64,000 bases of DNA from an uncultured Pelagibacteraceae bacterium (GTDB taxonomy: Bacteria; Pseudomonadota; Alphaproteobacteria; Pelagibacterales; Pelagibacteraceae). The DNA lies in contig CACHGA010000001.1 in the NCBI GenBank assembly GCA_902579285.1, positions 124,001 through 188,000 of the forward strand, given 5' to 3'. Shown in pieces: positions 22,554 to 61,484 of this stretch. A program made the translations under genes and the position numbers. A model generated the notes under the pieces. That model was not told the origin of the DNA. It searched no databases and saw only the letters and a list, made by a program, of their open reading frames with translations. Each line of letters opens with the position of its first letter. The first letter of the stretch is position 1.

Positions 22554-22850
22554 ATGAAATTTTTTTTTAGTATAATTTTTATATTTTTTCTAATCTCAGG
22601 TTGTAAAACAGTTACAGATAAGGTCGATAAAGCCTCCGAAAAAGAAACAAAAAAACTCAGTAAATTTTTAAAAAAAACTGAGTCGGAATTAAAAATAGAG
22701 TTTGGAAAACCTGATTCTGTCGAGCTATTGAGTAATAAAAATAAAATTTTAATTTATAATGAATCAAAGTTTAAAATTAAATGTGAGAGAAGGTTTGAAG
22801 TAGATCAAAAAAACATAGTAGTTGCTTTTAATAGCAAAAATTGTTTCTAG
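22554..22850 (+). CDS. Small lipoprotein, unknown function
   Basis: Signal peptide with lipobox FLISGC; 98 aa. Confidence 0.65.
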   Translation: MKFFFSIIFIFFLISGCKTVTDKVDKASEKETKKLSKFLKKTESELKIEFGKPDSVELLSNKNKILIYNESKFKIKCERRFEVDQKNIVVAFNSKNCF

Positions 22851-32538: not shown

Positions 32539-33570
32539 ATGGATACATTACTAATTACACTTATAGTTGTTTTATTAGCTTTAAATATTGCTGTAATATT
32601 TTTCTTATTGCGTAACAAACAGCAAAAAACAGAGGATCCTACTCAGACATTCAAAAATGAATTTAATTCTTTTAAAGATAGCTTCAGTCAATCTTTTGGA
32701 CACATGTCAAAGGATATTGCAAAAGATATGACAGGAGCTTTAACTAAAGTAGACGAGAAGGTTGGAGTATTTAATAAACAAGTAGAAGCCATGAACAAAA
32801 GCCAAGATAATTTCAGTAGAATTCTTGCCGGTGTAAAACAATACGGAATTCTTGCAGAATTCTCTTTAGCTTCATTATTGAAAGATTTATTGCCCGCTTC
32901 ACAATTTATCGAAAATGTAAAAATGAAACCAGAGGAAACTGGTGACACCGTAGAATTTGCAATTAAACTTCAAGATGTTCTTGTTCCCGTCGATAGCCAT
33001 TGGCCAATAGAAAAATTTAAAGAGATAGATAATGCTTACCAAGTTAAAGACAAAGAAGCTTTAGCAGAAGCCAGAAAAGATTTAGCATCAGCTTTTAGAA
33101 ATAAAGCTAAATCTGTAAGTTCAAAATATATTGCGCCACCAAAAACAACTGATTTTGCAATTGTATACGCTCCAACTGAAGGATTATTTGCTGAACTTTC
33201 AAGTTACAGAGATCCGAAAACTAAAGAGCTTTTGCTTGAGGAACTTAGAACTAAATATAAAGTTACAATAGCTGGTCCTAATACATTATCAGCACTTTTG
33301 CAGTCATATCACTTGGGGTTTCAGACTCTCAAAGTTCAAAAGCATGCGACACAAATTTATAGTGATCTAAAACTAATCTCTAGAAGATTTGAAAAACATT
33401 TTGATAGTATTATTGATTTAAGAAAAAAGTTAGATCAAGCCATGACTTCAACTGATAGTTTTGGAAGAGATGCCCGATCTATCATGAATACACTTAATAA
33501 CATTAAAGATCCTGGAACAGTAAAAGAGACAGTTGAAGAAAATTCTGATAAAATCAAAGTCTTAAAGTAA
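32539..33570 (+). CDS. rmuC: DNA recombination protein RmuC
   Basis: N-terminal TM, long coiled coil, VPVDSHWPIEKF, FAIVYAPTEGLFAEL. Confidence 0.87.
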   Translation: MDTLLITLIVVLLALNIAVIFFLLRNKQQKTEDPTQTFKNEFNSFKDSFSQSFGHMSKDIAKDMTGALTKVDEKVGVFNKQVEAMNKSQDNFSRILAGVKQYGILAEFSLASLLKDLLPASQFIENVKMKPEETGDTVEFAIKLQDVLVPVDSHWPIEKFKEIDNAYQVKDKEALAEARKDLASAFRNKAKSVSSKYIAPPKTTDFAIVYAPTEGLFAELSSYRDPKTKELLLEELRTKYKVTIAGPNTLSALLQSYHLGFQTLKVQKHATQIYSDLKLISRRFEKHFDSIIDLRKKLDQAMTSTDSFGRDARSIMNTLNNIKDPGTVKETVEENSDKIKVLK

Positions 33571-47215: not shown

Positions 47216-48160
47216 ATGAATAATTACCCAATAGCAACAATTCTAGGCGGTGGTGGTTTTATAGGACGTTATCTTGTCAGAAATTTGACCAGAAAGAACT
47301 TCAGATGCATTATTCCAACACGTAATCCCTTTACAAAAACGTATTTAAAGACTCAAGCGCCTCCAGGAGCCATAGAGATAATCAAATTTGGTCAAAATAA
47401 TTTCGATGAGATTAAAAATGCAATTGAAAACTCAGACGTAGTCATAAATCTTTGCGGCATATTATTTGAAAACAGAAAACAAAAATTTAATACGGTTCAT
47501 GCTGAACTCCCTGAAAGTATTGCAAAGTTATGTAAGAAATCAGATGTAAAAAAATTTGTACATGTTTCAGCAATAGGCGCGAACAAAGACTCTAAGTCTA
47601 AATACCAACAATCTAAATTTATGGGAGAAGAAAAAGCAATAAATAATTTTGATAAAACAGTAATAATTAGACCGAGTGTTGTAATAGGAAATGAAGATAA
47701 TTTTACAAATTTATTTGCTAAACTAAGTTTGTCTCCGATTATACCAGTTGTTAACACCAGTTATAAATTTGAACCAATTTTTGTGAACGATGTGGCAAAA
47801 GCAATTTTAAAGGCAATAGAGACGAAAAATAATGAAGGTAAAATTTATGAATTGGGTGGCGGTAGAGTTATCAGTTTTGGTGATATGATTAAATTAATTT
47901 TAAAAGTAATTGGAAAAAAAAGAATAGTTGCTGATGTACCAATGACGCTTGCAAAAATACAAGGATCCTTATTAAGCTTACTGCCAATTGATCCAGTAAT
48001 AACAAAAGATCAATGCATAATTCTTTCTGAAAAAGATAATGTAGTTTCAGGCGATCACTTAACCCTTGAAGATTTAAACATTAAGCCATCTGATATTGAA
48101 AAAGAAATGGAAAAATGGCTGTGGCGTTACCGATCAGGTGGAGAATTCGCAAAAGTCTAG
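47216..48160 (+). CDS. NDUFA9-like NAD(P)-binding protein (complex I-associated SDR)
   Basis: ATILGGGGFIGRYLVRNLTRKNF, VHVSAIGANKDSKSKYQQSKFMGE, IIRPSVVIGNEDNF. Confidence 0.88.
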   Translation: MNNYPIATILGGGGFIGRYLVRNLTRKNFRCIIPTRNPFTKTYLKTQAPPGAIEIIKFGQNNFDEIKNAIENSDVVINLCGILFENRKQKFNTVHAELPESIAKLCKKSDVKKFVHVSAIGANKDSKSKYQQSKFMGEEKAINNFDKTVIIRPSVVIGNEDNFTNLFAKLSLSPIIPVVNTSYKFEPIFVNDVAKAILKAIETKNNEGKIYELGGGRVISFGDMIKLILKVIGKKRIVADVPMTLAKIQGSLLSLLPIDPVITKDQCIILSEKDNVVSGDHLTLEDLNIKPSDIEKEMEKWLWRYRSGGEFAKV

Positions 48161-49056
48161 GGTACTAACAAGTTAAAAGATTTATCACTTTTTCTAATTA
48201 TTAATTTGTCTTCAAAACCAAAGTCCTCACCATCTATTTGTGAGAGAACTTTATTTTCAAGTTTATCAATTTCTAACTTATCAAGCTCTTTAGTAATAAT
48301 ACTTTTTGCTCTACTTAAATCTCCTTTTGATAATATTAGCCAAAGGTAATATAAAATTTTAATTCTTGAAAGATCTTCAAATATATAAGCAATAACTTTA
48401 TTATCAAAAATATTTGTTTTTTTCGTAATAGAGTGTGGTCCTGCATAATATTTTGAATTTGTTACAAGTACCCAATCGGCTTTAATTATTTTTCCATCGA
48501 CATTAACTTTCATCTTTTTATTTTTTAGAAATATAAAATGTTGCAGACCTTTAAGCGCAAAAATTATCTTACCTAAATATTTTTTAATTTGAGAGTCTAT
48601 TGAATGCACAATCTCTGAGTCAAAACCAATCCCAGCCATAAGAAAGAAATATTTATCATTAATTTTTGCAAGATTAATTTTTTTGGTGTTTTCTGAAACA
48701 AGTACTTTGTAAATTTCTTTAGCTTTTTTTTCTATTTGTGTTTCAATCTGAAGTATATTTGCTGTTCCTGCAGGTATGTAACCGATAATAGGCTTATCAA
48801 TGTCTTTATACTTATTTATGATCTGATTTATTCCAAAACATACTGAACCATCACCACCTGCAATTACGACTCTATCTGTGTTATTTTTTGATAATTCACT
48901 AAAAACTTTTTCAGCATCTTTTTCAGAGCTGGTTTTAAATAACTCTACCGAATGATCTATTTTAAGAAGCTCTATTACTTTGTTGATAAGCTTTAATTTT
49001 CTTCCACCTGCTGCGTTAGCATTAAAAATGATGGAAAATTTTAATTTTTTATTCAT
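48157..49056 (-). CDS. Diacylglycerol/lipid kinase family protein
   Basis: IFNANAAGG, VVIAGGDGSVCFGINQII, GYIPAGTANILQIE. Confidence 0.88.
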   Translation of the reverse strand: MNKKLKFSIIFNANAAGGRKLKLINKVIELLKIDHSVELFKTSSEKDAEKVFSELSKNNTDRVVIAGGDGSVCFGINQIINKYKDIDKPIIGYIPAGTANILQIETQIEKKAKEIYKVLVSENTKKINLAKINDKYFFLMAGIGFDSEIVHSIDSQIKKYLGKIIFALKGLQHFIFLKNKKMKVNVDGKIIKADWVLVTNSKYYAGPHSITKKTNIFDNKVIAYIFEDLSRIKILYYLWLILSKGDLSRAKSIITKELDKLEIDKLENKVLSQIDGEDFGFEDKLIIRKSDKSFNLLVP

Positions 49057-49058
49057 TT

Positions 49059-49077
49059 TTTAACATTTCTGTAACAT
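49059..49077. promoter_or_regulatory. Candidate Pho box (11-bp-spaced direct repeat TTTAACAT-ttc-TGTAACAT)
   Basis: Half-sites 49059-49066 and 49070-49077 in the DAG kinase / PlcP-like divergent region; same 11-bp phasing as the pstS upstream repeat. Confidence 0.6.
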
Positions 49078-49116
49078 ATTTATGATTCAACTAAAAGAAG
49101 AGATTCGTTTTATAAA

Positions 49117-49929
49117 ATGAAACAAATAAAATCTAGCGCCGAAGGAAAAATACTTACATTTAAAAGTATATTCATCTCAGATGTTCATCTAGGAACAGTT
49201 GGTTGCCAAGCAAATAAACTCTTAGAATTTTATAAACACACAAGATCAGAAAATCTTTATTTGGTGGGAGACATCTTCGATATTTGGGCTCTCAAAAAAA
49301 GTTTTTTTTGGCCACAAGAACACAATGATGTCATTCAAAAAACTCTTAGAAAGGCAAGACACGGTACAAAAGTAAAATATATTACAGGAAACCACGATGA
49401 GATTTTTAGAAAGTTTGTTCCAATAAATTTTGGTGATGTTGAGTTAATAAACAAATGTATACATGAAACAGTTGATAAAAAAAAATATGTGGTAATTCAT
49501 GGAGACCAGTGGGATGGTGTTATGAAATATGCACCCTGGTTATCTAAAGTGGGTGCCATCGCTTATAATTTATTATTAAGACTAAATAATTTAGTAAATT
49601 TTATTAGAAACATTTTTGGCAAGGAGAAGTGGTCGCTTGCAAAATTTTTAAAAAATAAAGTAAAGAATGCAGTTAAATATATAGGTGATTATGAAAAAAC
49701 TGTATCTAGCTACGGTAAAAAGAAAAATGTCGACGGAATTATTTGTGGACATATTCATAAAGCTTCAAATCAAAATTTTGATGGAGTGAACTATTTAAAT
49801 TGTGGTGATTGGGTAGAGAACTGCACTGCTCTTGTAGAGCATCTAGATGGAAAAATGGAAATTATTAAGTGGGATGAAATTAGACAAGAAGTGGTAAATT
49901 ACAGAACTCAGCTTAAAGAGGTAGTTTAA
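49117..49929 (+). CDS. PlcP-like metallophosphoesterase (phospholipid remodelling / UDP-2,3-diacylglucosamine hydrolase family)
   Basis: FISDVHLGTVGCQANKLLEF, GDIFDIWALKK, ITGNHDE, VIHGDQWDG, CGHIHKA; followed by Agt-like GT. Confidence 0.85.
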   Translation: MKQIKSSAEGKILTFKSIFISDVHLGTVGCQANKLLEFYKHTRSENLYLVGDIFDIWALKKSFFWPQEHNDVIQKTLRKARHGTKVKYITGNHDEIFRKFVPINFGDVELINKCIHETVDKKKYVVIHGDQWDGVMKYAPWLSKVGAIAYNLLLRLNNLVNFIRNIFGKEKWSLAKFLKNKVKNAVKYIGDYEKTVSSYGKKKNVDGIICGHIHKASNQNFDGVNYLNCGDWVENCTALVEHLDGKMEIIKWDEIRQEVVNYRTQLKEVV

Positions 49930-49934
49930 CATTT

Positions 49935-50969
49935 ATGAGAATATTAATTATTACGGATGCTTGTCCGGAACATGTTTTAAATGGTGTGACCAGATCTTAT
50001 TCAAGATTAGAAATTGAATTAAAAAAAATGGGTCACAAAGTCAGCTACATTAAACCTACTCAATTTTTCACAGTTCCAATGCCCAAATATAATGAAATCA
50101 AATTAGCCATAAATGTATGGAAGGTTGGTAAATTAATTAAAAAAGAAATGATCGAAGCACAAAATAATAATGAACAGTTTAGAATACATATTGCTACAGA
50201 GGGACCTTTAGGACTATCAGCTAGAAGATATTTAGGTAGAAATAAGATAAAATTTACTTCAAGTTTTCACACTAGATTTGATAAATATCTAAAATTATAT
50301 CTCCCTATAATACCCGAAAAAATATCCCAAAAATTTTTAAGTAACTTTCACAACAAAGCTGAAAGGGTATTAGTCACTACAGAGTCGATGAAAAAAGAAT
50401 TAAGCGATATAGGGGTAATTAATGACAAAATGGTTGTTTGGACAAGAGGGGCAGATCATTTAGGAGAACCAAAGAAAATGACATTAAATTACAACAAACC
50501 AATTTTTGTTTATGTAGGAAGGATCGCATTGGAAAAAAATATTAAAGATTTTTTAGACCTTGATTTACCAGGTAAAAAAATATTAGTTGGTACAGGCCCC
50601 CATTTAAAAAAACTCACAAAAGAGTATCCTGATGCTAAGTTTGTTGGTCAAAAAACGAACGGTGAATTAGCTTCTTATTTTGCATCAGCTGACGTTTTTG
50701 TTTTTCCATCAAAAACGGAAACATTTGGAATTGTATGTATAGAGTCTTTGATGGCAGGAACACCCGTAGCAGGTTACGCTGATTGCCCAGGTACAATGGA
50801 TATTTTTAAATTAGCTAATGGAAAATCAATTGGTTGTCTTGATAAAGATTTAAAAAAAGCGGCTTTGACAGCTTTAAAAGCAGATAGAGACAACTGTAAA
50901 GAATTTGCTAAACAATTTACTTGGAAGAGATGTGCAGAGATATTTATCAATAACACTGCAGTAAACTAA
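49935..50969 (+). CDS. GT4 glycosyltransferase, Agt-like (glycosyl-diacylglycerol synthesis candidate)
   Basis: IITDACPEHVLNGVTRSYSRLEIELKKMGH, FSSFHTRFDKYL-type region, FPSKTETFGIVCIESLMAGTPV. Confidence 0.83.
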   Translation: MRILIITDACPEHVLNGVTRSYSRLEIELKKMGHKVSYIKPTQFFTVPMPKYNEIKLAINVWKVGKLIKKEMIEAQNNNEQFRIHIATEGPLGLSARRYLGRNKIKFTSSFHTRFDKYLKLYLPIIPEKISQKFLSNFHNKAERVLVTTESMKKELSDIGVINDKMVVWTRGADHLGEPKKMTLNYNKPIFVYVGRIALEKNIKDFLDLDLPGKKILVGTGPHLKKLTKEYPDAKFVGQKTNGELASYFASADVFVFPSKTETFGIVCIESLMAGTPVAGYADCPGTMDIFKLANGKSIGCLDKDLKKAALTALKADRDNCKEFAKQFTWKRCAEIFINNTAVN

Positions 50970-51016
50970 GACATATCTCCCCTTTAAATTAACCTTACTT
51001 CAACTATAATTAATTA

Positions 51017-52222
51017 ATGGATTTACTCTTTATATTAATAGGCGCAGGTCTTGCTATATTTGTTATATTCGTATCTTTTAAAAGCATCGGAGCAGGTATA
51101 GCCGCAAAATCAGAAATAAATAGACAAAAAGACAAACTAAAATCAGGTGATAAAGAAGAGGGGATAGAAGACATCACCAATGAAAATATTGAAAAAACTA
51201 ATGAGCAAGTAAAGATTATAAATCAAATCGATGATCTAATTTTAATTGTAGATAAATTTAAAAATATCAAATTTTTTAATAATAGTGCAAAAAAAAAATT
51301 TGGAGCAAATAATTTAAATAAGCACGTAGCTACATTATTGAGAGTTCCTGATTTACTCCAAAATATTGATTTAGTGCTTTTAAAAAAAGAGACAATTACT
51401 ATGGATTTAGAATTATCCTCTCCCTCATTTCAGTTCTTTAAAGTTCATCTATTCTCTGGACCGACCTCATATGTCGATGATCCTGATTCAGTTGTTTTAT
51501 TTCTAAAAGATTTAACTGATATTATAAAAGCGCAAAGGTTTAAATCTGATTTTGTAGCTAATGTCAGCCATGAACTTAAAACGCCTTTAGTTTCTATTAA
51601 AGGATTTTTAGAAACTATAAGCGGACATGCGAAAGATGATTTAGAAGCTCAAAAAAAATTCATACCGATAATGCTTGAGCAAGCTGATAGGATGGAAAGC
51701 TTAATTAAAGATTTACTTTCATTAAGTAGAATTGAGTTAGAGGAACATATACAGCCTCAAGATAAAGTAAATTTAAAAGAAATTTTAAGTAACGTTGAAG
51801 ATATCCATCAAAAAAATTTAAAATCTTTTGAATTTAAAAATAATATAAAAGATGATTTCTTTATTAAAGGCGATCATGAAAAATTAATTGAAGTTTTTTC
51901 AAATATTATTGATAACAGTATAAAATATTCAGAAAAAAATAAAAAAATTGAGGTTAATTGTAAGCAAGGTAACGGAAAAGTTATAGGAGACTCTTATACC
52001 GTGTCCATTAAAGATAATGGTATTGGGATTCCAACTGAACAACTTCCGAGAATTACTGAAAGATTTTTTAGAGTTGATGCCGCTAAAAGTAAAAAAGTTG
52101 GTGGCACTGGATTGGGAATGGCGATCGTGAAGCACATTGTTAATCAGCATAGAGGTGAGTTAGAAATAAAAAGCGAGGCTCAAAATGGCACCGAAATAAA
52201 GGTCCATTTTTCAAAATTTTAG
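51017..52222 (+). CDS. phoR: Phosphate regulon sensor kinase PhoR
   Basis: H-box FVANVSHELKTPLVSIKGFLETI, FSNIIDNSIKYSE, GGTGLGMAIVKHIVNQHRGEL; upstream of pst operon. Confidence 0.92.
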   Translation: MDLLFILIGAGLAIFVIFVSFKSIGAGIAAKSEINRQKDKLKSGDKEEGIEDITNENIEKTNEQVKIINQIDDLILIVDKFKNIKFFNNSAKKKFGANNLNKHVATLLRVPDLLQNIDLVLLKKETITMDLELSSPSFQFFKVHLFSGPTSYVDDPDSVVLFLKDLTDIIKAQRFKSDFVANVSHELKTPLVSIKGFLETISGHAKDDLEAQKKFIPIMLEQADRMESLIKDLLSLSRIELEEHIQPQDKVNLKEILSNVEDIHQKNLKSFEFKNNIKDDFFIKGDHEKLIEVFSNIIDNSIKYSEKNKKIEVNCKQGNGKVIGDSYTVSIKDNGIGIPTEQLPRITERFFRVDAAKSKKVGGTGLGMAIVKHIVNQHRGELEIKSEAQNGTEIKVHFSKF

Positions 52223-52285
52223 CAAATATTACAGTTTTATTAAATTTTGTCTTGAGATAGACGGCAAAATAGTTAAAGTTTTAGT

Positions 52286-52897
52286 ATGACTAGATTAATG
52301 AATTATATAAGTCTGGTTTTATTAAGTTTAATTTTTACAACTGTTAAAGCAGATGTAAATTTAATTGAGAAAACTTTGCGTTCTCAACCTCTTACAGTTT
52401 TTGATCTTGGACTTCTAAGACTGAAAAACGATCTTAGGCAAGCTAAAAACGATTTAGTACTTGAAGTAGATAGTAAAAATGTATCGACAATTTATACTGA
52501 AGCTTTATTTTCAAGACGATACGATGGAATTCAATTAATTGTGTCAGCACCGATGAGCACTCATTTAAATGCTAACTCTTACATTGTGGACTCAATTAAA
52601 TGTAGAAAAATTTTTGAAAAAGTTAAAAATAATCTTTTAAAAGGACAAAACGAGAGCAATATGATTCACTCACAAGCTGCATCTTATTTAAGTGAAGTAT
52701 TCACCGCTCCAACACAATGGAATGCTTGGAGATATGATAAAGGTTTTACTCAAAAATTAGTTAACTTTGTACAACTAGAAGTTACATTAAAGCCAACTCA
52801 ATCCTACGCAGTTAAAAATAAAGTAAGACCTTTTAGTTGCGGAGGGTCTTTATCCTCTGATTATGAGCAAATCGAGATAACTAGAAAGTTCAACTAA
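52286..52897 (+). CDS. Secreted protein of unknown function located between phoR and pstS
   Basis: Signal peptide (SLVLLSLIFTTVKA); 203 aa; no domain recognised. Confidence 0.7.
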   Translation: MTRLMNYISLVLLSLIFTTVKADVNLIEKTLRSQPLTVFDLGLLRLKNDLRQAKNDLVLEVDSKNVSTIYTEALFSRRYDGIQLIVSAPMSTHLNANSYIVDSIKCRKIFEKVKNNLLKGQNESNMIHSQAASYLSEVFTAPTQWNAWRYDKGFTQKLVNFVQLEVTLKPTQSYAVKNKVRPFSCGGSLSSDYEQIEITRKFN

Positions 52898-52919
52898 AAA
52901 GTTATCATTTTAATAAATT

Positions 52920-52938
52920 TGTAACACATCTGTAATAT
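52920..52938 (+). promoter_or_regulatory. Candidate Pho box upstream of pstS (TGTAACA-catc-TGTAATA)
   Basis: 11-bp-spaced direct repeat, ~70 bp before the pstS ATG. Confidence 0.7.
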
Positions 52939-53004
52939 TTAAGAGTCCTTTTAATTCTATGAGTCTTATGTTTGTTAATTAATTAATAAATGAAAGGATA
53001 AACA

Positions 53005-54009
53005 ATGAGAAAACTATCAATCGCTTTGGCTTCATTAGTTGCAATGTTAGTTGTAACTTCTGCTCAAGCTAGAGATCAGATTAAAATCGTTGGTTCTTCA
53101 ACTGTATTCCCGTATGCAACAATCGTTGCTGAAAGATTTGGTTCGTCTGGTAAATTTAAAACACCAGTGATCGAGTCAACAGGAACAGGTGGTGGAGCTA
53201 AATTATTCTGTGCCGGAGTTGGTACAGAGCACCCAGACGTAACAAATGCATCTAGAGCTATGAAGGCTAAAGAGTATGCGCTATGTCAAAAAAATGGTGT
53301 TGAAGAAATTGTAGAAATTACAGTTGGTAACGATGGAATAACTTTAGCTTATTCTAAAGATGCTAAACCAGTAAACTTTACAAAAAAACATTTATGGGCA
53401 GCATTAGCAAAAGAAGTTGCTAAAGATGGTGCGTTAGTACCAAATCCATATAAAAATTGGAGTGATATCGACTCATCATTACCAAACTACCCTATCAAAG
53501 TTATGGTACCTCCAGGAACATCAGGAACAAGAGATGCTTGGAATTCATTAGTAATGAAAAAAGGTATCGATGATGCTTCTAAAAAAGCTGGCGCTAAATA
53601 TAAAGCGTTAAGAGAAGATGGTGCGGTAATTGAGGTTGGTGAAAACGACTCACTAATTATCCAAAAATTAGCTGCGGACAAAGAAATGTTCGGTTTCTTT
53701 GGTTTCAGTTATTTCTTAGCTGCAAAAGATAAATTGCAAGCTGCAAGCATTGAAGGTGGTCAACCAAGTCTATCTTCGATTCAAGATTACAGTTACGCAG
53801 TTGCAAGACCTTTATTCTTCTACGTGAAAAAAGCTCACGTTGGAGTTGTACCTGGCTTACATGAATTCGTAAAAGAGTTCACAAGTAAAAAAGCTATGGG
53901 CACAAAAGGTTATTTAACTGATATTGGGCTAGTACCTCTAGATAGCAAGTTATACAAAACTTCTAGAACTAACGCTACAAAGTTAGTTAACATGCCTGCT
54001 AAGAAGTAG
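53005..54009 (+). CDS. pstS: Phosphate ABC transporter substrate-binding protein
   Basis: Signal peptide; IKIVGSSTVFPYATIVAERFG, PPGTSGTRDAWNSLV. Confidence 0.96.
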   Translation: MRKLSIALASLVAMLVVTSAQARDQIKIVGSSTVFPYATIVAERFGSSGKFKTPVIESTGTGGGAKLFCAGVGTEHPDVTNASRAMKAKEYALCQKNGVEEIVEITVGNDGITLAYSKDAKPVNFTKKHLWAALAKEVAKDGALVPNPYKNWSDIDSSLPNYPIKVMVPPGTSGTRDAWNSLVMKKGIDDASKKAGAKYKALREDGAVIEVGENDSLIIQKLAADKEMFGFFGFSYFLAAKDKLQAASIEGGQPSLSSIQDYSYAVARPLFFYVKKAHVGVVPGLHEFVKEFTSKKAMGTKGYLTDIGLVPLDSKLYKTSRTNATKLVNMPAKK

Positions 54010-54023
54010 TAGTATCAATTCAA

Positions 54024-54052
54024 CAAAAAGGGGGTATTTTACCCCCTTTTTT
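54024..54052 (+). terminator. Intrinsic terminator/attenuator between pstS and pstC
   Basis: AAAAAGGGGGTA-TTT-TACCCCCTTTTTT, perfect inverted repeat with T-tract. Confidence 0.9.
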
Positions 54053-54069
54053 ATCTTTGAAAACTCAAC

Positions 54070-55446
54070 ATGAATTTAATACTTGTAACTTTTATTATTC
54101 TCTTAGCTTTCACAAGTTATTATTTCGGTAGAAAAAAAGCCTTAGTTATTCAATCATCACAAAGACTTACGGCATTACCAAAATTTTATGGATATTATTT
54201 AGCTGCGTGGTGTGCTGCACCAGCACTAATAATTTTTGTCCTATGGTCAGTTTTTGAACCATCAATCGTTAAAACATTTATTTTACAAGATTACACCGAC
54301 CAAAATTTAACTAAAAATGAGCTTCAGCTAATTTACACAAAAGTTAAAGCATTAGCCGTAGGAACTTACACGGGAAATATTACTAATTTTTTAGATGAGT
54401 CTGCCAATAAGTATATTCAACTAAAAGGAATAGCCAACAGTGCTAAAGTAGCAATTATTTTAGCAATTTTAATTTTCTCTCTGAGTTTTGCATATAGATC
54501 TGTTCAGAAAAATGATCGAATGAGAGAACCAGTAGAAATTTTTCTTAAATGGGTATTATTTGTTGCATCATTAGGCGCAGTTTTAGTTACAATCGGAATA
54601 ATTTTTTCACTTTTATTCGAAGCGATTAGATTTTTTCAAGCAGTAAAAATCTTTGACTTTATATTCGGAACTCATTGGTATCCTGCTAAAACTTTTGTAA
54701 GAGATGGCCAGCCAGATCCTGAATTAATGAAGGATGCTTTCGGAGCTGTACCTTTATTTGCCGGAACTTTTTTTATTGCTTTTATTGCTATGTGTGTTGC
54801 CATCCCCATAGGTTTGTTAAGCGGGATTTATCTATCTGAGTATGCCGGAAGAGGCGTGAGAAAATATGCGAAACCTATTATTGAGATTTTAGCTGGTATT
54901 CCAACAGTGGTATACGGTTTTTTTGCAGCTTTAACCGTCGGTCCTTTTGTTAAAGAAATAGGTAACGCTATGGGTTTAGAAGTTTCATCGGAGAGCGCTT
55001 TAGCTGCAGGAGCAGTTATGGGAGTAATGATAATTCCTTTTATTTCAAGTTTAAGCGATGACGTTATAACAGCAGTACCGCAAAATTTAAGAGATGGAAG
55101 TTACGCAATGGGCGCAACAAAATCTGAGACTGTAAAAAAAGTAATTTTTCCAGCAGCCTTACCTGGTATTGTAGGTTCGATACTTTTAGCAGTATCGAGA
55201 GCGGTGGGAGAAACAATGATTGTTGTAATGGCCTCAGGACTAGCGGCTAATCTTACAATGAATCCACTTGAATCAACCTCAACCATTACAGCGCAAATCG
55301 TAGTAATTTTAATTGGAGACCAACAATTCGGAGATCCAAAAACTCAATCAGCTTTTGCCTTAGGAATATCTTTATTTATAGTAACTTTATTCTTAAATGT
55401 AATCGCTCTTTCAGTTGTTAAAAGATATAGGGAAAAATATGAATAA
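54070..55446 (+). CDS. pstC: Phosphate ABC transporter permease PstC
   Basis: IPIGLLSGIYLSEYAGRGVRKYAKPIIEILAGIPTVVYGFFA, MGATKSETVKKVIFPAALPGI. Confidence 0.95.
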   Translation: MNLILVTFIILLAFTSYYFGRKKALVIQSSQRLTALPKFYGYYLAAWCAAPALIIFVLWSVFEPSIVKTFILQDYTDQNLTKNELQLIYTKVKALAVGTYTGNITNFLDESANKYIQLKGIANSAKVAIILAILIFSLSFAYRSVQKNDRMREPVEIFLKWVLFVASLGAVLVTIGIIFSLLFEAIRFFQAVKIFDFIFGTHWYPAKTFVRDGQPDPELMKDAFGAVPLFAGTFFIAFIAMCVAIPIGLLSGIYLSEYAGRGVRKYAKPIIEILAGIPTVVYGFFAALTVGPFVKEIGNAMGLEVSSESALAAGAVMGVMIIPFISSLSDDVITAVPQNLRDGSYAMGATKSETVKKVIFPAALPGIVGSILLAVSRAVGETMIVVMASGLAANLTMNPLESTSTITAQIVVILIGDQQFGDPKTQSAFALGISLFIVTLFLNVIALSVVKRYREKYE

Positions 55447-56710
55447 TTATAAGAAAAATTTATTAAAAAAAAGATATAACGCTGAAAGAAGATTTCAATG
55501 GTATGGCAAAATAGCTATAGGATTAGCTTTAACCTTTTTAGCAGTTTTTATGTTTCAAATATTTTCAAAAGGTTACTCAGCTTTCCAAAAAACTTGGATA
55601 GTAACTGAAGTTCATTATGATAAAGAATTACTTTTAATCGATGCAGAAAGCCCATCAAAAGATGATTTAGAAAATGCAGACTATTATGATGTTGCTTATA
55701 AAGCTATGACCTCATTAGATCCTGGACTTCCTGAAGAAGAGGATCGTCAATTGATTCAAATGGTTTCGTATAAATACGAGACAGAAGTTAAAGATCTACT
55801 TTTAAAAAATCCAGACTTTCTAGGTAAAATAGTACCCATAAAATTAACAGCTTCTGATGATGTTGATCAAGTTCATAAGGGAAATTATCCAAGAGATATC
55901 CCTGAAAAGAATAGAAGAGTAAATGATTATCAGCTGCAGATTTACGATATGCTTAATGAGAGAGGAGATATTTTATCAGAGTTTAATATTAGTTTCTTTA
56001 CAAATCCCGACTCAAGAGAGGCAGAACTAGCAGGTATAGCTAGCTCGTTTATGGGAACAGTTTTTAGTATATTAGTATGTTTAGCGTTTTCATTTCCTAT
56101 TGCAGTGCTAGCAGCAATTTATCTCGAGGAATTTGCACCAAAAAATAAATTTACAGATTTTATAGAAGTAAACATTAACAATTTGGCAGCCGTTCCATCG
56201 ATAGTATTTGGTTTGCTAGGTCTGGGTATTTTATTAGCAGTTTTTAATTTACCAAGGTCGACACCACTTGTCGGAGGAATTACTCTGTCACTTATGACAC
56301 TACCAACAATAATTATTGCTGCAAGAGCATCATTAAAAGCTGTACCACCAAGTATAAGAGAAGCTGCTTTAGCGATGGGTGCAAGTAATATGCAAACGAC
56401 CATGCATCATACTGTTCCACTATCAATGCCCGGAACCTTATCTGGAACGATAATTGGCTTAGCTCAAGCTTTAGGAGAAACAGCCCCTTTAATTTTAATA
56501 GGAATGGTTGCTTTTGTTAATACAATTCCTGGCACGCCAGTTGATCCTGCTGCAAGTTTACCAGTACAGATATATATATGGTCAGAAAGCGCTGAGAGGG
56601 GTTTCGTTGAAAAAGTATCTGCATGTATTATGGTGCTTCTAGCTTTTTTAATTTTAATGAACTTGGCAGCTCAAATAGTTAGACACAAATTTGAAAAGAA
56701 ATGGAGTTAA
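55439..56710 (+). CDS. pstA: Phosphate ABC transporter permease PstA
   Basis: FPIAVLAAIYLEEFAPKN, NNLAAVPSIVFGLLGLGIL, MGASNMQTTMHHTVPLSMPG; ATG at 55439 preferred over the track start at 55415. Confidence 0.95.
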   Translation: MNNYKKNLLKKRYNAERRFQWYGKIAIGLALTFLAVFMFQIFSKGYSAFQKTWIVTEVHYDKELLLIDAESPSKDDLENADYYDVAYKAMTSLDPGLPEEEDRQLIQMVSYKYETEVKDLLLKNPDFLGKIVPIKLTASDDVDQVHKGNYPRDIPEKNRRVNDYQLQIYDMLNERGDILSEFNISFFTNPDSREAELAGIASSFMGTVFSILVCLAFSFPIAVLAAIYLEEFAPKNKFTDFIEVNINNLAAVPSIVFGLLGLGILLAVFNLPRSTPLVGGITLSLMTLPTIIIAARASLKAVPPSIREAALAMGASNMQTTMHHTVPLSMPGTLSGTIIGLAQALGETAPLILIGMVAFVNTIPGTPVDPAASLPVQIYIWSESAERGFVEKVSACIMVLLAFLILMNLAAQIVRHKFEKKWS

Positions 56711-57466
56711 ATGAGTAAAATTATAGCAGAAAATGTAAATGTATATTACGGATCTAAACAGGCATTATTTGATGTCTCTATAGATATTGCAGAAAAAGAG
56801 GTTACAGCTTTAATTGGACCATCTGGATGTGGAAAGTCTACTTTCTTAAGATGCTTGAACAGAATGAACGATGTTATAGATATTTGTAGAGTTGAAGGTA
56901 GTATTAAAATGGATGACCTAGAACTCAACTCAAGAAAATTAGATGTTGTGAGACTTAGGGAAAACGTTGGTATGGTTTTTCAAAAACCCAATCCGTTCCC
57001 TAAAACAATTTATGAAAATGTAGCTTATGGACCTACTATTCACGGTATTGCACAGAGCAAAGAAGAAATGGATCAAATAGTTGAAACAAGTCTGAAAAAA
57101 GCTGCCCTGTGGAACGAAGTTAAAGATAGACTTGATGAAATCGGAACTGGTTTATCAGGAGGTCAACAGCAACGACTATGTATTGCAAGAGCTATATCTG
57201 TAAGCCCAGAAGTGATTCTTATGGATGAACCATGTTCAGCGCTTGACCCAATAGCAACAGCTCAAATTGAAGAACTTATAGATGATCTTAAAAAAGAGGT
57301 TACAATTGTAATAGTTACCCACTCAATGTCACAAGCAGCTAGGGTATCTCAAAAAACAGGTTTCTTTCATTTGGGAAAACTTATAGAATTTGGATCAACA
57401 GAAAAAATATTTAAAAATCCTGACAAACAACAAACTCAGGATTACATTACAGGAAGGTTTGGTTAA
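56711..57466 (+). CDS. pstB: Phosphate ABC transporter ATP-binding protein
   Basis: [51 protein letters not shown]. Confidence 0.98.
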
Positions 57467-58146
57467 TGAGTGAAAAACCGCACATTGTAAAATCTTACGA
57501 AGAGCAACTTCAGTTATTAAAAGATACAATAGTGAAAATGGGAACGGGTGTTGAGAAACAGCTAGAAAACGCTATTCAATCTTTAGTTAAAAAAGACATT
57601 AACTTAGCAGAAAAATCTATCAAAGATGACGAATTGACTGATAAATATGAAATAAATATAGAAGAGCAAGTTGTAAATTTGATTGCCTTAAGGCAACCTA
57701 TGGCAATAGATTTAAGAGAAACAGTTGTTGCTTTAAAAGTTTCTTCAGACTTAGAGAGAATTGGTGATTTAGCAAAAAACATCTCAAAACGATTAAGTAA
57801 AATTGGAACCGATTTACCTAATGATATAACTAAAAATTTCGAAATAGCTGGTCTAAAAGCATCAAAACAAGTTAATGCAGTTTTAAATTCGTATTTACAT
57901 AGAGCTAAAGATACAGCAGAAAATGTTTGGAATTCTGATGAAGAAATAGATCAAATGACTAATGCTAATATGGAAGCTGCAGTAAAGCATTTAGAAAAAA
58001 ATAAAAACGATATACAAAAAATAACCCAACTACTTTTCATGCTTAAAAATATAGAGAGGATTGGAGATCATGCAACTAATATTGCAGAGCAAGTTTATTT
58101 TCTGATTACAGGAGATTATTTAGAGGGAGACCGACCAAAGGGATAA
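57466..58146 (+). CDS. phoU: Phosphate signalling complex protein PhoU
   Basis: Two PhoU repeats: VALKVSSDLERIGDLAKNI, FMLKNIERIGDHATNIAEQVYFL. Confidence 0.96.
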   Translation: MSEKPHIVKSYEEQLQLLKDTIVKMGTGVEKQLENAIQSLVKKDINLAEKSIKDDELTDKYEINIEEQVVNLIALRQPMAIDLRETVVALKVSSDLERIGDLAKNISKRLSKIGTDLPNDITKNFEIAGLKASKQVNAVLNSYLHRAKDTAENVWNSDEEIDQMTNANMEAAVKHLEKNKNDIQKITQLLFMLKNIERIGDHATNIAEQVYFLITGDYLEGDRPKG

Positions 58147-58829
58147 TGAGGGCAAATTTATTCATAGTTGAAGATGAAATGCCCATCGTAACTTTGCTTA
58201 AATACAATTTAGAAAAAGAGGGTCACAAAGTTGATTATGCAGTCAATGGAGAAGAAGCTATTAGAAATATAAAGGAGAAAAATCCTGATTTAATTTTATT
58301 AGATTGGATGTTGCCAGATATCTCAGGTGTTGAAGTCTGTAAAAATTTGAAAAGAAGCAATCTTCACAAAAATATCCCAATCATTATGTTAACAGCCAAA
58401 GGTGAAGAAGAAGACAAACTAAAAGGATTTGAAACAGGAGCAGATGACTACGTAACTAAGCCATTCAGCCAAAAAGAACTTATTGCAAGAGTTAACGCTT
58501 TACTAAAGAGATCTAAACCAAGTGTTGCCGCTGATGTTGTAGTATTTGAGGATCTAAAAGTAGATAGAGTTCAACGAAGAGTTTATAGAGCAGATAAGCA
58601 AGTTATAGTTGGTCCTACAGAATTTAAACTAATTGATTTTTTAATAAAGAATCCAAAAAGAGTATATTCGCGTGAGCAACTTTTAAATTCTGTATGGGGA
58701 GATGATATTTATGTGGAGTCCAGAACTATAGATGTTCATATTAGAAGACTAAGAAAAGCAATAAATATTGATAGCAAGAAAGATCTTATCAGAACAGTTA
58801 GATCTGCCGGTTACTCATTAGATGCCTGA
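58146..58829 (+). CDS. phoB: Phosphate regulon response regulator PhoB
   Basis: FIVEDEMPIVTLLKYNL, LLDWMLPDISGVEVC, RTVRSAGYSLDA. Confidence 0.95.
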   Translation: MRANLFIVEDEMPIVTLLKYNLEKEGHKVDYAVNGEEAIRNIKEKNPDLILLDWMLPDISGVEVCKNLKRSNLHKNIPIIMLTAKGEEEDKLKGFETGADDYVTKPFSQKELIARVNALLKRSKPSVAADVVVFEDLKVDRVQRRVYRADKQVIVGPTEFKLIDFLIKNPKRVYSREQLLNSVWGDDIYVESRTIDVHIRRLRKAINIDSKKDLIRTVRSAGYSLDA

Positions 58830-59335
58830 AGATCTTTTGGCTTTATAAATGAAATTAATTTTCCTTTAACTTTTGATAACCTCTCCCAATCATTGAAATT
58901 AAAGTTTACTTCGGCAACGGCTGCAGTAGGAAATTTTCTTTTTAAATTTTCAAATTGATCAGAATTTTCTTTAAGACAGATTCGATTTATTAGTTCACTC
59001 ATTGAAGGTTCATGATTGATTAAAAGTAAAGTTTTATAATTATCACCTGTTTGTTTTAAGATACGAATAATTTCATCCTCACTAGCGTGATAAAGCGCCT
59101 TTTTTTTAATAATTTTTTTAAAACTGATTTTTTCTGACAATATATCTAATGTTTGCATTGTCCTTTTAGAGGATGAGCAATAAACTAAATCAAATTTTAA
59201 TTTCTTTTTAATAAAAAATTCACAAATTAATTTTGCTGAATTTACTCCCCTTTTATTCAATGGCCTGTCATGATCATCTAAATCTGGAAAATCCCAACTA
59301 GATTTAGCATGTCTCATCGCATATAATTTAAACAT
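58811..59335 (-). CDS. SixA-like phosphohistidine phosphatase
   Basis: YAMRHAKSSWDFPDLDDHDRPLNKRG, LLLINHEPSMSELI. Confidence 0.88.
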   Translation of the reverse strand: MFKLYAMRHAKSSWDFPDLDDHDRPLNKRGVNSAKLICEFFIKKKLKFDLVYCSSSKRTMQTLDILSEKISFKKIIKKKALYHASEDEIIRILKQTGDNYKTLLLINHEPSMSELINRICLKENSDQFENLKRKFPTAAVAEVNFNFNDWERLSKVKGKLISFIKPKDLQASNE

Positions 59336-59357
59336 ATTTTTAATTTAACATTTATAT

Positions 59358-61484
59358 ATGTCGAAAGCATCATTTTCAGAAAACGCTAATATTAGCAATC
59401 AACTCATAAACAGAGAATTATCTTGGCTTCAGTTTAATGATCGTGTTTTAGAAGAGTCAAAAGATAAAACAAATCCTCTATTTGAAAGAGTAAAATTTTT
59501 ATCAATCGCAGGTACAAATTTAGATGAATTTTTTATGGTAAGAGTCGCTGGACTTTTTAATCAAATTAAAGATGGTTTTGACGAATTAAGCGCAGATGGA
59601 TTAACTGCAGAGGATCAATTGAATAGGGTCGTATTAAAAACTAAAGATCTATTAAAGAAGCAAAACGAAGCGTTCCTAGAGCTGAAAAAAGAGCTATCAA
59701 AAGAAAAAGTTTTTATTCGAAAAATGTCAGAACTAAACAAGAAGAATCTTATTTATCTGAAAGAATATTTTCAGGAAACAATTTATCCTATAATAACACC
59801 TACTGCCATCGACCCATCACATCCCTTCCCTTTCATACCGAATAAAGGCCAAGCAATTTTATTAAGAATGAGCAGAATTAAAAAAAAAAGAGAACTAAAC
59901 GCAATTATAGTTATACCAAGAGCGCTTCCAAAATTTATATCGCTAAACAATTTTGAAACAATAAATGAATTTGTCACAATTGATGACTTAATTTGTGAAT
60001 TTGCCAATGAAATATTTCCAGATCATAATATTGAGGCAAGTTTGCAGTTTAAAATAATTAGAGACAGTGAAATCGAAATAGACGATGAGGCCGCTGATCT
60101 TGTGAGATATTTTGAAAAAGCAATAAAGAAAAGAAGAAGGGGAAACGTAGTTAAACTTGAAGTACTTACTAATTCAAATAAAAAACTTTTAAATTTTATT
60201 TCAAAAAAATTTAAAATGAATGAAGATCATATTTATGAGGTTGAAGGATTAGTTGGAATACAGGATATAGATGAAATTTGTAAGAAGAAAGATCCAAAGC
60301 TGAGATTTAAAAAATTTAATCCTAGAGAAGTTGAAAGATTGAAAGAATTTGATAATAAATTTTTTTCAGCTATAAGAAGCAAAGATTTTGTTGTACACCA
60401 TCCTTTTGAAACATTTGATGTAGTAATTCAATTTTTAGAAGCTGCAGCAAAAGATCCCAAAGTTATCGGTATCAAACAAACTTTGTATCGAACCACTCCT
60501 GACTCTCCTATTGTAAAAGCACTTAGTAGAGCAGCAGAAAACGGAAAAGTTGTAACAGCTGTAGTAGAAATAAAAGCTCGATTTGATGAGGAAGCTAATA
60601 TTGAATTATCTAGGAAACTAGAGAAAGCTGGCGTTCAAATTGTTTATGGATTCGCAAAATACAAAACGCATGCAAAGGCAAGTTTAGTTTTAAGAAAAGA
60701 AGGAGTTAAAACGCGAAGCTATGTTCACTTAGGTACAGGAAACTATCATCCAATTAATGCAAAAATTTATACTGACTTATCACTGTTTAGCTCTAATCAA
60801 GACCTGGCCAAAGATGTTGAAAAATTTTTCAATTATGTAACTGGTTATGCAAAACCAAAAAAATTAAATAAAATCTTTATGTCACCAATAAATAGTAGGA
60901 ATTTCTTTGAAAAAAAAATTGAAAATGAAATTGCAAATGCAAATAAAGGAAGACCTGCAGAAATATGGGCAAAAATGAATTCTCTTGTAGACCCTGGAAT
61001 TATTAAGAAATTTTACGAAGCTTCAAACGCAGGCGTTAAAATAAATTTATCAGTAAGAGGCGTATGTTGCTTAAGACCTGGAATTAAAGCTCAATCTGAA
61101 AATATAAAAGTAAAAAGCCTTATTGGCAGATTTTTAGAACACTCAAGAATTTATTGTTTTGCAAATGGTAGTTCTATGCCCTCTAGAGAGAATCAGGTAT
61201 ATATTTCATCTGCAGATTTAATGCCTAGAAATTTAGATAGAAGAATTGAAATTATAATTCCAATAGAAAACAATACTGTGCATGAGCAAATTTTAGATCA
61301 AATTATGTTAGCCAACTTTAAAGATAAATCAGAAACATGGTATTTAGATAGCTTAGGAAACTATCATAAAGAACAAGAAAAAGGCTTTTCAGCACATACC
61401 TATTTTATGGAAAACTCAAGTTTATCAGGTCGTGGTAAGTCACTTTTAAAAGCTAAACCTCAAAATTTAAGATTGGTGAAATGA
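59358..61484 (+). CDS. ppk: Polyphosphate kinase 1
   Basis: NRELSWLQFNDRVLEE, VVEIKARFDEEANIELSRKLEKAGVQIVYG, THAKASLVLRKEG, HLGTGNYHP. Confidence 0.97.
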   Translation: MSKASFSENANISNQLINRELSWLQFNDRVLEESKDKTNPLFERVKFLSIAGTNLDEFFMVRVAGLFNQIKDGFDELSADGLTAEDQLNRVVLKTKDLLKKQNEAFLELKKELSKEKVFIRKMSELNKKNLIYLKEYFQETIYPIITPTAIDPSHPFPFIPNKGQAILLRMSRIKKKRELNAIIVIPRALPKFISLNNFETINEFVTIDDLICEFANEIFPDHNIEASLQFKIIRDSEIEIDDEAADLVRYFEKAIKKRRRGNVVKLEVLTNSNKKLLNFISKKFKMNEDHIYEVEGLVGIQDIDEICKKKDPKLRFKKFNPREVERLKEFDNKFFSAIRSKDFVVHHPFETFDVVIQFLEAAAKDPKVIGIKQTLYRTTPDSPIVKALSRAAENGKVVTAVVEIKARFDEEANIELSRKLEKAGVQIVYGFAKYKTHAKASLVLRKEGVKTRSYVHLGTGNYHPINAKIYTDLSLFSSNQDLAKDVEKFFNYVTGYAKPKKLNKIFMSPINSRNFFEKKIENEIANANKGRPAEIWAKMNSLVDPGIIKKFYEASNAGVKINLSVRGVCCLRPGIKAQSENIKVKSLIGRFLEHSRIYCFANGSSMPSRENQVYISSADLMPRNLDRRIEIIIPIENNTVHEQILDQIMLANFKDKSETWYLDSLGNYHKEQEKGFSAHTYFMENSSLSGRGKSLLKAKPQNLRLVK

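Follow-up and report, generated by a model that had tools for sequence, protein, structure and literature searches.

We describe here a probable phosphorus (P)-starvation lipid-remodelling cassette, situated in a SAR11 genome on its Pho island, in which a diacylglycerol (DAG) kinase gene (DAGK) appears, from comparison among genomes, to be a genuine, conserved, and jointly inherited partner of plcP and agt. The PlcP/Agt reading of this pathway is right and is largely published; what is new is the partnership with DAGK, the behaviour of the three genes as a cassette, and the lineage-specific wiring of their promoters. The regulatory consequence of that wiring is something that we infer.

SAR11 are among the most abundant marine bacteria, and lipid remodelling sets the minimum phosphorus need of their cells. 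A DAGK within the remodelling module, together with promoter wiring that varies, would offer a testable account of how these cells avoid a futile cycle in which PlcP makes DAG and DAGK reverts it. The same account would cover the rebuilding of phospholipid when phosphate returns.

The locus and its genome

The window, by which we mean the whole 64-kb stretch of DNA that was analysed, comes from a 0.89-Mb (892-kb) genome that is about 80% complete and belongs to the SAR11 Pelagibacteraceae. Among the best 80 PlcP relatives listed, all were records of Pelagibacteraceae/Pelagibacterales (SAR11). The genes run in the order DAGK (minus strand), a 60-bp spacer, plcP, agt, phoR, a 203-aa open reading frame (ORF; u203), pstSCAB, phoU, phoB, sixA (minus strand), ppk, and ppx, with the phoR-pstSCAB-phoUB island directly 3' of plcP-agt (Table 1). 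The genes later in the island were named from their position together with their translation.

Neither Pfam nor NCBIfam has a family that matches the 203-aa protein, whose ORF lies between phoR and pstS and is preceded by an inverted Pho-like box (52227-52244, minus strand).

Table 1. Features of the DAGK-plcP-agt locus and the adjoining Pho island (positions in the window)
Feature	Position	Strand	Basis or remark
Diacylglycerol/lipid kinase (DAGK_cat; YegS/DgkB type)	48157-49056	-	Pfam, PDB relatives, alignment motifs; divergent from plcP
Pho-type box TTTAACA-TTTC-TGTAACA (TTTAACA-N4-TGTAACA)	49059-49076	+	PWM, conservation; faces plcP
-10-like element TATGAT, presumed plcP promoter	49081-49086	+	Sequence and relatives; inferred
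Paired GANTC (GATTC-N13-GATTC)	49084-49106	.	plcP promoter
plcP, metallophosphoesterase, predicted phospholipase C	49117-49929	+	Metallophos domain, invariant active-site motifs, LpxI elsewhere in genome
agt, GT4 glycosyltransferase, predicted DAG glycosyltransferase	49935-50969	+	Pfam GT4/GT1 domains, EX7E motif, gene order as in HTCC7211
phoR sensor kinase	51017-52222	+	TIGR02966, E 2.7e-89
Conserved 203-aa protein (u203), probably exported	52286-52897	+	Same place in most relatives
Three-unit Pho-type box, pstS promoter	52909-52937	+	Same 11-bp phase as plcP box
Paired GANTC (GAGTC-N13-GAGTC)	52943-52965	.	pstS promoter
pstS, pstC, pstA, pstB, phoU, phoB	53005-58829	+	ORFs and translations; pstS by Pfam/NCBIfam
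Near-identical block, DAGK-plcP-agt and start of phoR	48100-51145	.	Comparison across species of the genus

PlcP and Agt

The first-pass annotation had placed an Agt-like GT4 gene 5 nt after a PlcP-like gene, and both the coordinates and the Pfam domains agree with this. The plcP product carries the Metallophos domain (E 6e-11), and its motifs SDxHLG, GDI.D, GNHD, HGD, and GHIH, which make up a calcineurin-type metal site, were invariant in 10/10 relatives aligned. The agt product carries Glycos_transf_1 and Glyco_transf_4 along with the EX7E motif. In relatives too agt comes after plcP, an order equal to that of the published plcP-agt of HTCC7211. We take the cassette enzymes to be of the PlcP/Agt remodelling type, their individual steps being predicted by homology to HTCC7211 proteins that others have tested.

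Here, some care over names is warranted. The best NCBIfam and PDB matches of the phosphoesterase are LpxH, and a paper on HIMB59 gives such an island gene that very name, which would place it in lipid A synthesis rather than in the role of PlcP. Yet its LpxH scores lie far under the NCBIfam curated cut-offs (51.8 bits vs 134; 41.6 vs 190), and the gene is both accessory and Pho-linked. In addition, LpxI is encoded in its own genome and in the genus, including the plcP-less genome G015. On the low scores and the presence of LpxI we reject the LpxH assignment, to which we give next to no probability.

The DAG kinase as a partner of plcP

Annotation of the divergent gene as a predicted diacylglycerol kinase agrees with its domain and motifs: Pfam returns DAGK_cat (E 4.8e-21), the closest solved relatives in the PDB are DgkB, BmrU, and YegS, and the GGDG, GTAN, and DG(E/D) motifs are kept in the family alignment. 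No NCBIfam cut-off was reached by this protein, the best being TIGR00147 (109 vs 118.65 bits). In several g3 relatives (L038, L045, and L039) the DGE motif reads DGD.

A survey of the family (247 genomes) found plcP in 111 genomes and DAGK in 113. The divergent arrangement of the two genes, whose conservation had been singled out for checking, is kept at 104/112 plcP loci of the family, where the gap measures 59-116 bp. Of the remaining eight loci, four begin no more than 50 bp from the end of a contig. A fifth, in G058, is also close to a contig end and has a DAGK fragment elsewhere, on a separate contig. G047, G092, and G051 are clear exceptions to adjacency. The whole island order (DAGK divergent from plcP, then agt, phoR, u203, pstSCAB, phoU, and phoB) is kept in g1, g3, g4, g7, g9, and g12.

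When the sample was taken across the class (~384 genomes), plcP was present in 139, this type of DAGK in 98, and both in 76, a co-occurrence with an odds ratio of 12 (p 1.5e-22, related genomes being non-independent). The two are divergent neighbours in 62 of the 76 genomes having both.

Is the DAGK perhaps a bystander, carried along with plcP-agt but taking no part in remodelling? In some g5, g12, and g4 loci (g5, G059, and G166:C81) DAGK does stand beside phoR or pstS without plcP, and three plcP-agt loci have no DAGK. The first of these observations also means that the link of DAGK to the Pho locus does not run through plcP alone. What speaks against a bystander is that DAGK and plcP are divergent neighbours in 62 genomes of the class sample and that DAGK is absent together with plcP-agt from genus-mates: in G015 and G024 the neighbouring epimerase gene is followed directly by phoR, and DAGK, plcP, and agt are all missing there. 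To these must be added a jointly homogenised block of sequence (described below), which, with the adjacency and the joint absence, is hard to explain by hitchhiking alone. We consider a bystander improbable, and continue with DAGK as a probable partner of plcP-agt.

Exchange of the cassette

Across species of the genus (L137-L152), DAGK-plcP-agt shows 14-17 differences in 2.9 kb (>99.4% identical). The left flank of this near-identical block falls to ~80% identity in most species of the genus, and the right flank to ~66% from roughly 51,145 onward in several (L140, L143, and L150). A near-identical block set between divergent flanks argues for recent exchange of DAGK-plcP-agt as a unit, and the three genes would thus behave as one cassette. 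In G191 (L085), all three are found together but away from pst.

The pst operon appears to have a history of its own. In three g4 genomes (L066, L069, and L071) the stretch from u203 to ppk has 93-99% nucleotide identity to the window, and their DAGK, plcP, and agt are 66-76% identical to it, which suggests that the operon was exchanged between genera, in a second exchange beside that of the cassette.

Two further observations concern the same region. From phoR through ppk (51017-61484), identity to this other genus (g4; the same three loci) reaches up to 99%, and some genus-mates have a different pst allele (PstS 67%).

The Pho-type box

The repeat upstream of plcP had been reported to share the 11-bp phase of the repeat before pstS, and indeed the plcP box matches the unit that is repeated three times before pstS. 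The degenerate pattern TTWAAYANNNNTGTAAYA has four occurrences in the 892-kb genome, and a 3.9-kb stretch of the Pho island holds three of these; its reversed control has 0. The plcP box sequence has one exact copy in the genome. With a position weight matrix (PWM) built solely from the pstS boxes of relatives, the plcP box scores 20.9 of a maximum of 22.2 bits, and a search with this matrix found a box within 160 nt upstream of only pstS and plcP among the 63 genes of the window.

Conservation of the repeat at plcP orthologs, on which the first-pass annotation had staked its reading, is complete among the distinct plcP upstream regions of the family (38/38). The box also precedes plcP in three loci without DAGK (L075-L077), so it belongs to plcP. 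Furthermore, TATGAT keeps its position with respect to the box in relatives from five genera. Judged by these comparisons, the repeat is a real Pho-type box and not a product of chance.

A different OmpR-family regulator, such as CtrA with its TTAA-N7-TTAA type sites, might be thought to bind the repeat in place of PhoB, given that the plcP box is also readable as TTAA-N7-GTAA. However, the genome has just four matches, three of them inside the Pho island; pstS is preceded by three copies of the plcP box unit; and phoB lies within the operon. Pelagibacter is, moreover, reported to be without ctrA (PMC2877005). We reject CtrA as the binder on the rarity of the box, its Pho-island location, and this reported absence, and rate binding by a regulator of this kind as very improbable. 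PhoB remains our preferred candidate.

Of the four genome matches to the pattern, the one outside the island (TTAAATATTGCTGTAATA, 32581-32598, 11.6 bits) is not near any Pho gene examined. Classical CTGTCAT boxes, looked for in 60 class-wide DAGK/plcP spacers, were found in 12/60 and 15/60 (two strands) at p<=0.02, with a mean best score of 8.7 vs 7.6 for simple letter shuffles, an enrichment on both strands that is weak per locus.

The spacer can also be read, at 49082-49120, as a 12-codon upstream ORF (MIQLKEEIRFIK) with a stop that overlaps the plcP ATG. Short upstream ORFs resembling this one occur in g7 and g9, and g4 has an in-frame extension. We prefer to see TATGATTC as a putative -10 element rather than as the start of this ORF, because the pstS promoter is arranged in much the same way but lacks an ATG.

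Promoter geometry and a proposed switch

It had been suggested that one site may control both the release and the recycling of DAG. The single box present here fits poorly with this: it faces plcP, points away from DAGK, and begins 3 nt before the DAGK start codon. A box so placed is not upstream of a DAGK promoter, and any effect of PhoB on DAGK should therefore be negative. From this geometry we propose, tentatively but as a serious possibility, that the single box hardly activates DAGK and may block it in this lineage.

The alternative is that the single box switches on the genes on either side of it, raising DAG release and recycling in parallel. One activator site can serve two divergent genes, P. 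putida DagK is induced by P starvation (PMC5082522), and a DAGK-directed box does exist in most loci of one genus (g3). The spacer of our own lineage, in contrast, has no DAGK-directed box (best opposite-strand score 5.9 bits vs 20.9), and its one box sits, as noted, against the DAGK start codon with its face to plcP. We think co-activation unlikely, and the idea that one site controls both is, in that sense, probably wrong here. The rise of P. putida DagK in P starvation is the opposite of the DAGK repression predicted for this locus.

The wiring is not the same everywhere. A single plcP-directed box, 2-25 nt before the DAGK start codon, is the arrangement in g1, g4, g7, g9, g12, and part of g3. 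Most g3 loci have two boxes, the plcP one and an opposite-strand box ~66 nt upstream of DAGK, and the second, DAGK-directed box implies that both genes would be co-induced there.

For the lineage of the window, and with DAGK taken as a partner that is hindered rather than activated, the sequence of events would be as follows. Low phosphate would lead PhoR/PhoB to activate plcP-agt from the box at 49059-49076, with TATGAT as the -10. PlcP would strip the head groups from phospholipids to leave DAG, which Agt would glycosylate to phosphorus-free glycolipids, and DAGK would return DAG, its putative substrate, to phosphatidic acid. Since the box overlies the point at which the DAGK transcript presumably starts, PhoB would not activate DAGK and would probably hinder it. 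During starvation, release would be ON and recycling OFF; on refeeding, the reverse would apply.

GANTC sites

The window contains two GANTC-N13-GANTC pairs, and these fall exactly in the plcP (49084) and pstS (52943) promoters. If the 98-aa ORF at 22554-22850 is taken to be a gene, the window has no GANTC outside ORFs other than the four sites of these pairs. A GANTC lies 23-26 nt after the box in 37/38 distinct plcP promoters of the family, many of which also have one at +7. In most g1/g3/g4 pst promoters, GANTC sites whose middle base varies stand at +5 and +23; no such pair is present in those of g7, g9, and g12.

The genome as a whole has 11 GANTC-N13-GANTC pairs vs 3 for the reversed control, so the pair alone is not specific for Pho promoters and was discarded as a genome-wide Pho signature. 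A CcrM-like methylase and GcrA are encoded in the genome. We treat the paired GANTC after a Pho box as a lead, not a result.

There is a likeness to the Caulobacter elpS promoter (PMC5172544), which brings Pho control and CcrM GANTC sites together in one promoter, and at which P starvation changes GANTC methylation in a PhoB-dependent setting. The systems differ in that MucR is involved in Caulobacter, whereas the case in SAR11 consists of the sites, GcrA, and the CcrM-like methylase alone. By extension, SAR11 Pho promoters might be composite, a Pho box being followed, with constant spacing, by one or two GANTC sites that CcrM/GcrA read, and lipid remodelling might be coupled to DNA methylation or replication state; the plcP box would then also shut DAGK, acting as a reciprocal switch in most lineages and rewired to co-induction in one genus. 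We find this larger scheme doubtful.

Relation to published systems

The claim that PlcP/Agt pairs are known to swap lipids under P starvation is backed by publication for marine heterotrophs, SAR11 itself among them (PMC4796936). In that work (Sebastian et al. 2016), a plcP mutant is complemented by PlcP of HTCC7211, MGDG and GADG are the products of its Agt, and plcP gene clusters, including those of SAR11, have predicted Pho boxes. GTcp has been reported to use UDP-Glc, UDP-Gal, and UDP-GlcA with DAG (Wei et al. 2021, PMC8231724). Our locus shares with the HTCC7211 type 2 arrangement, as set out in these papers (PMC4796936, PMC8231724), the order plcP then agt, a predicted Pho box, a SAR11 host, and a DAG intermediate. 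It differs from the former account, the main text of which has 0 mentions of DAG kinase, in that here DAGK is linked and apparently co-transferred, and the box geometry is described.

In P. putida BIRD-1, the published study (PMC5082522) counts both PlcP and DagK, which are PHO-dependent there, in lipid renovation, as we would here. There, however, both rise in P starvation, along with ornithine lipid genes, and the passages on this strain describe no shared divergent plcP/DagK promoter.

The text, as distinct from the figures, of the open-access papers searched held no statement of a DAGK-plcP pairing. A 2015 SAR11 lipid study by Carini reportedly described an up-regulated gene cluster of four genes.

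The flexible phosphate islands of HIMB59 (PMC10734472) resemble ours in that DGK, "LpxH," and "RfaG" share one P island with pst, phoR-phoB, ppk, sixA, and ppx. That paper sees no direct P function in the glycosyltransferase or DGK and names the phosphoesterase LpxH; our analysis suggests that such published sets of "LpxH + RfaG + DGK" be re-read as remodelling cassettes.

Finally, the SAR11 clusters of DAGK, metallophosphoesterase, and glycosyltransferase that were found only in HTCC7211 are jointly over-represented at P-poor BATS (PMC3686209), and this joint over-representation lends metagenomic support to a joint role.
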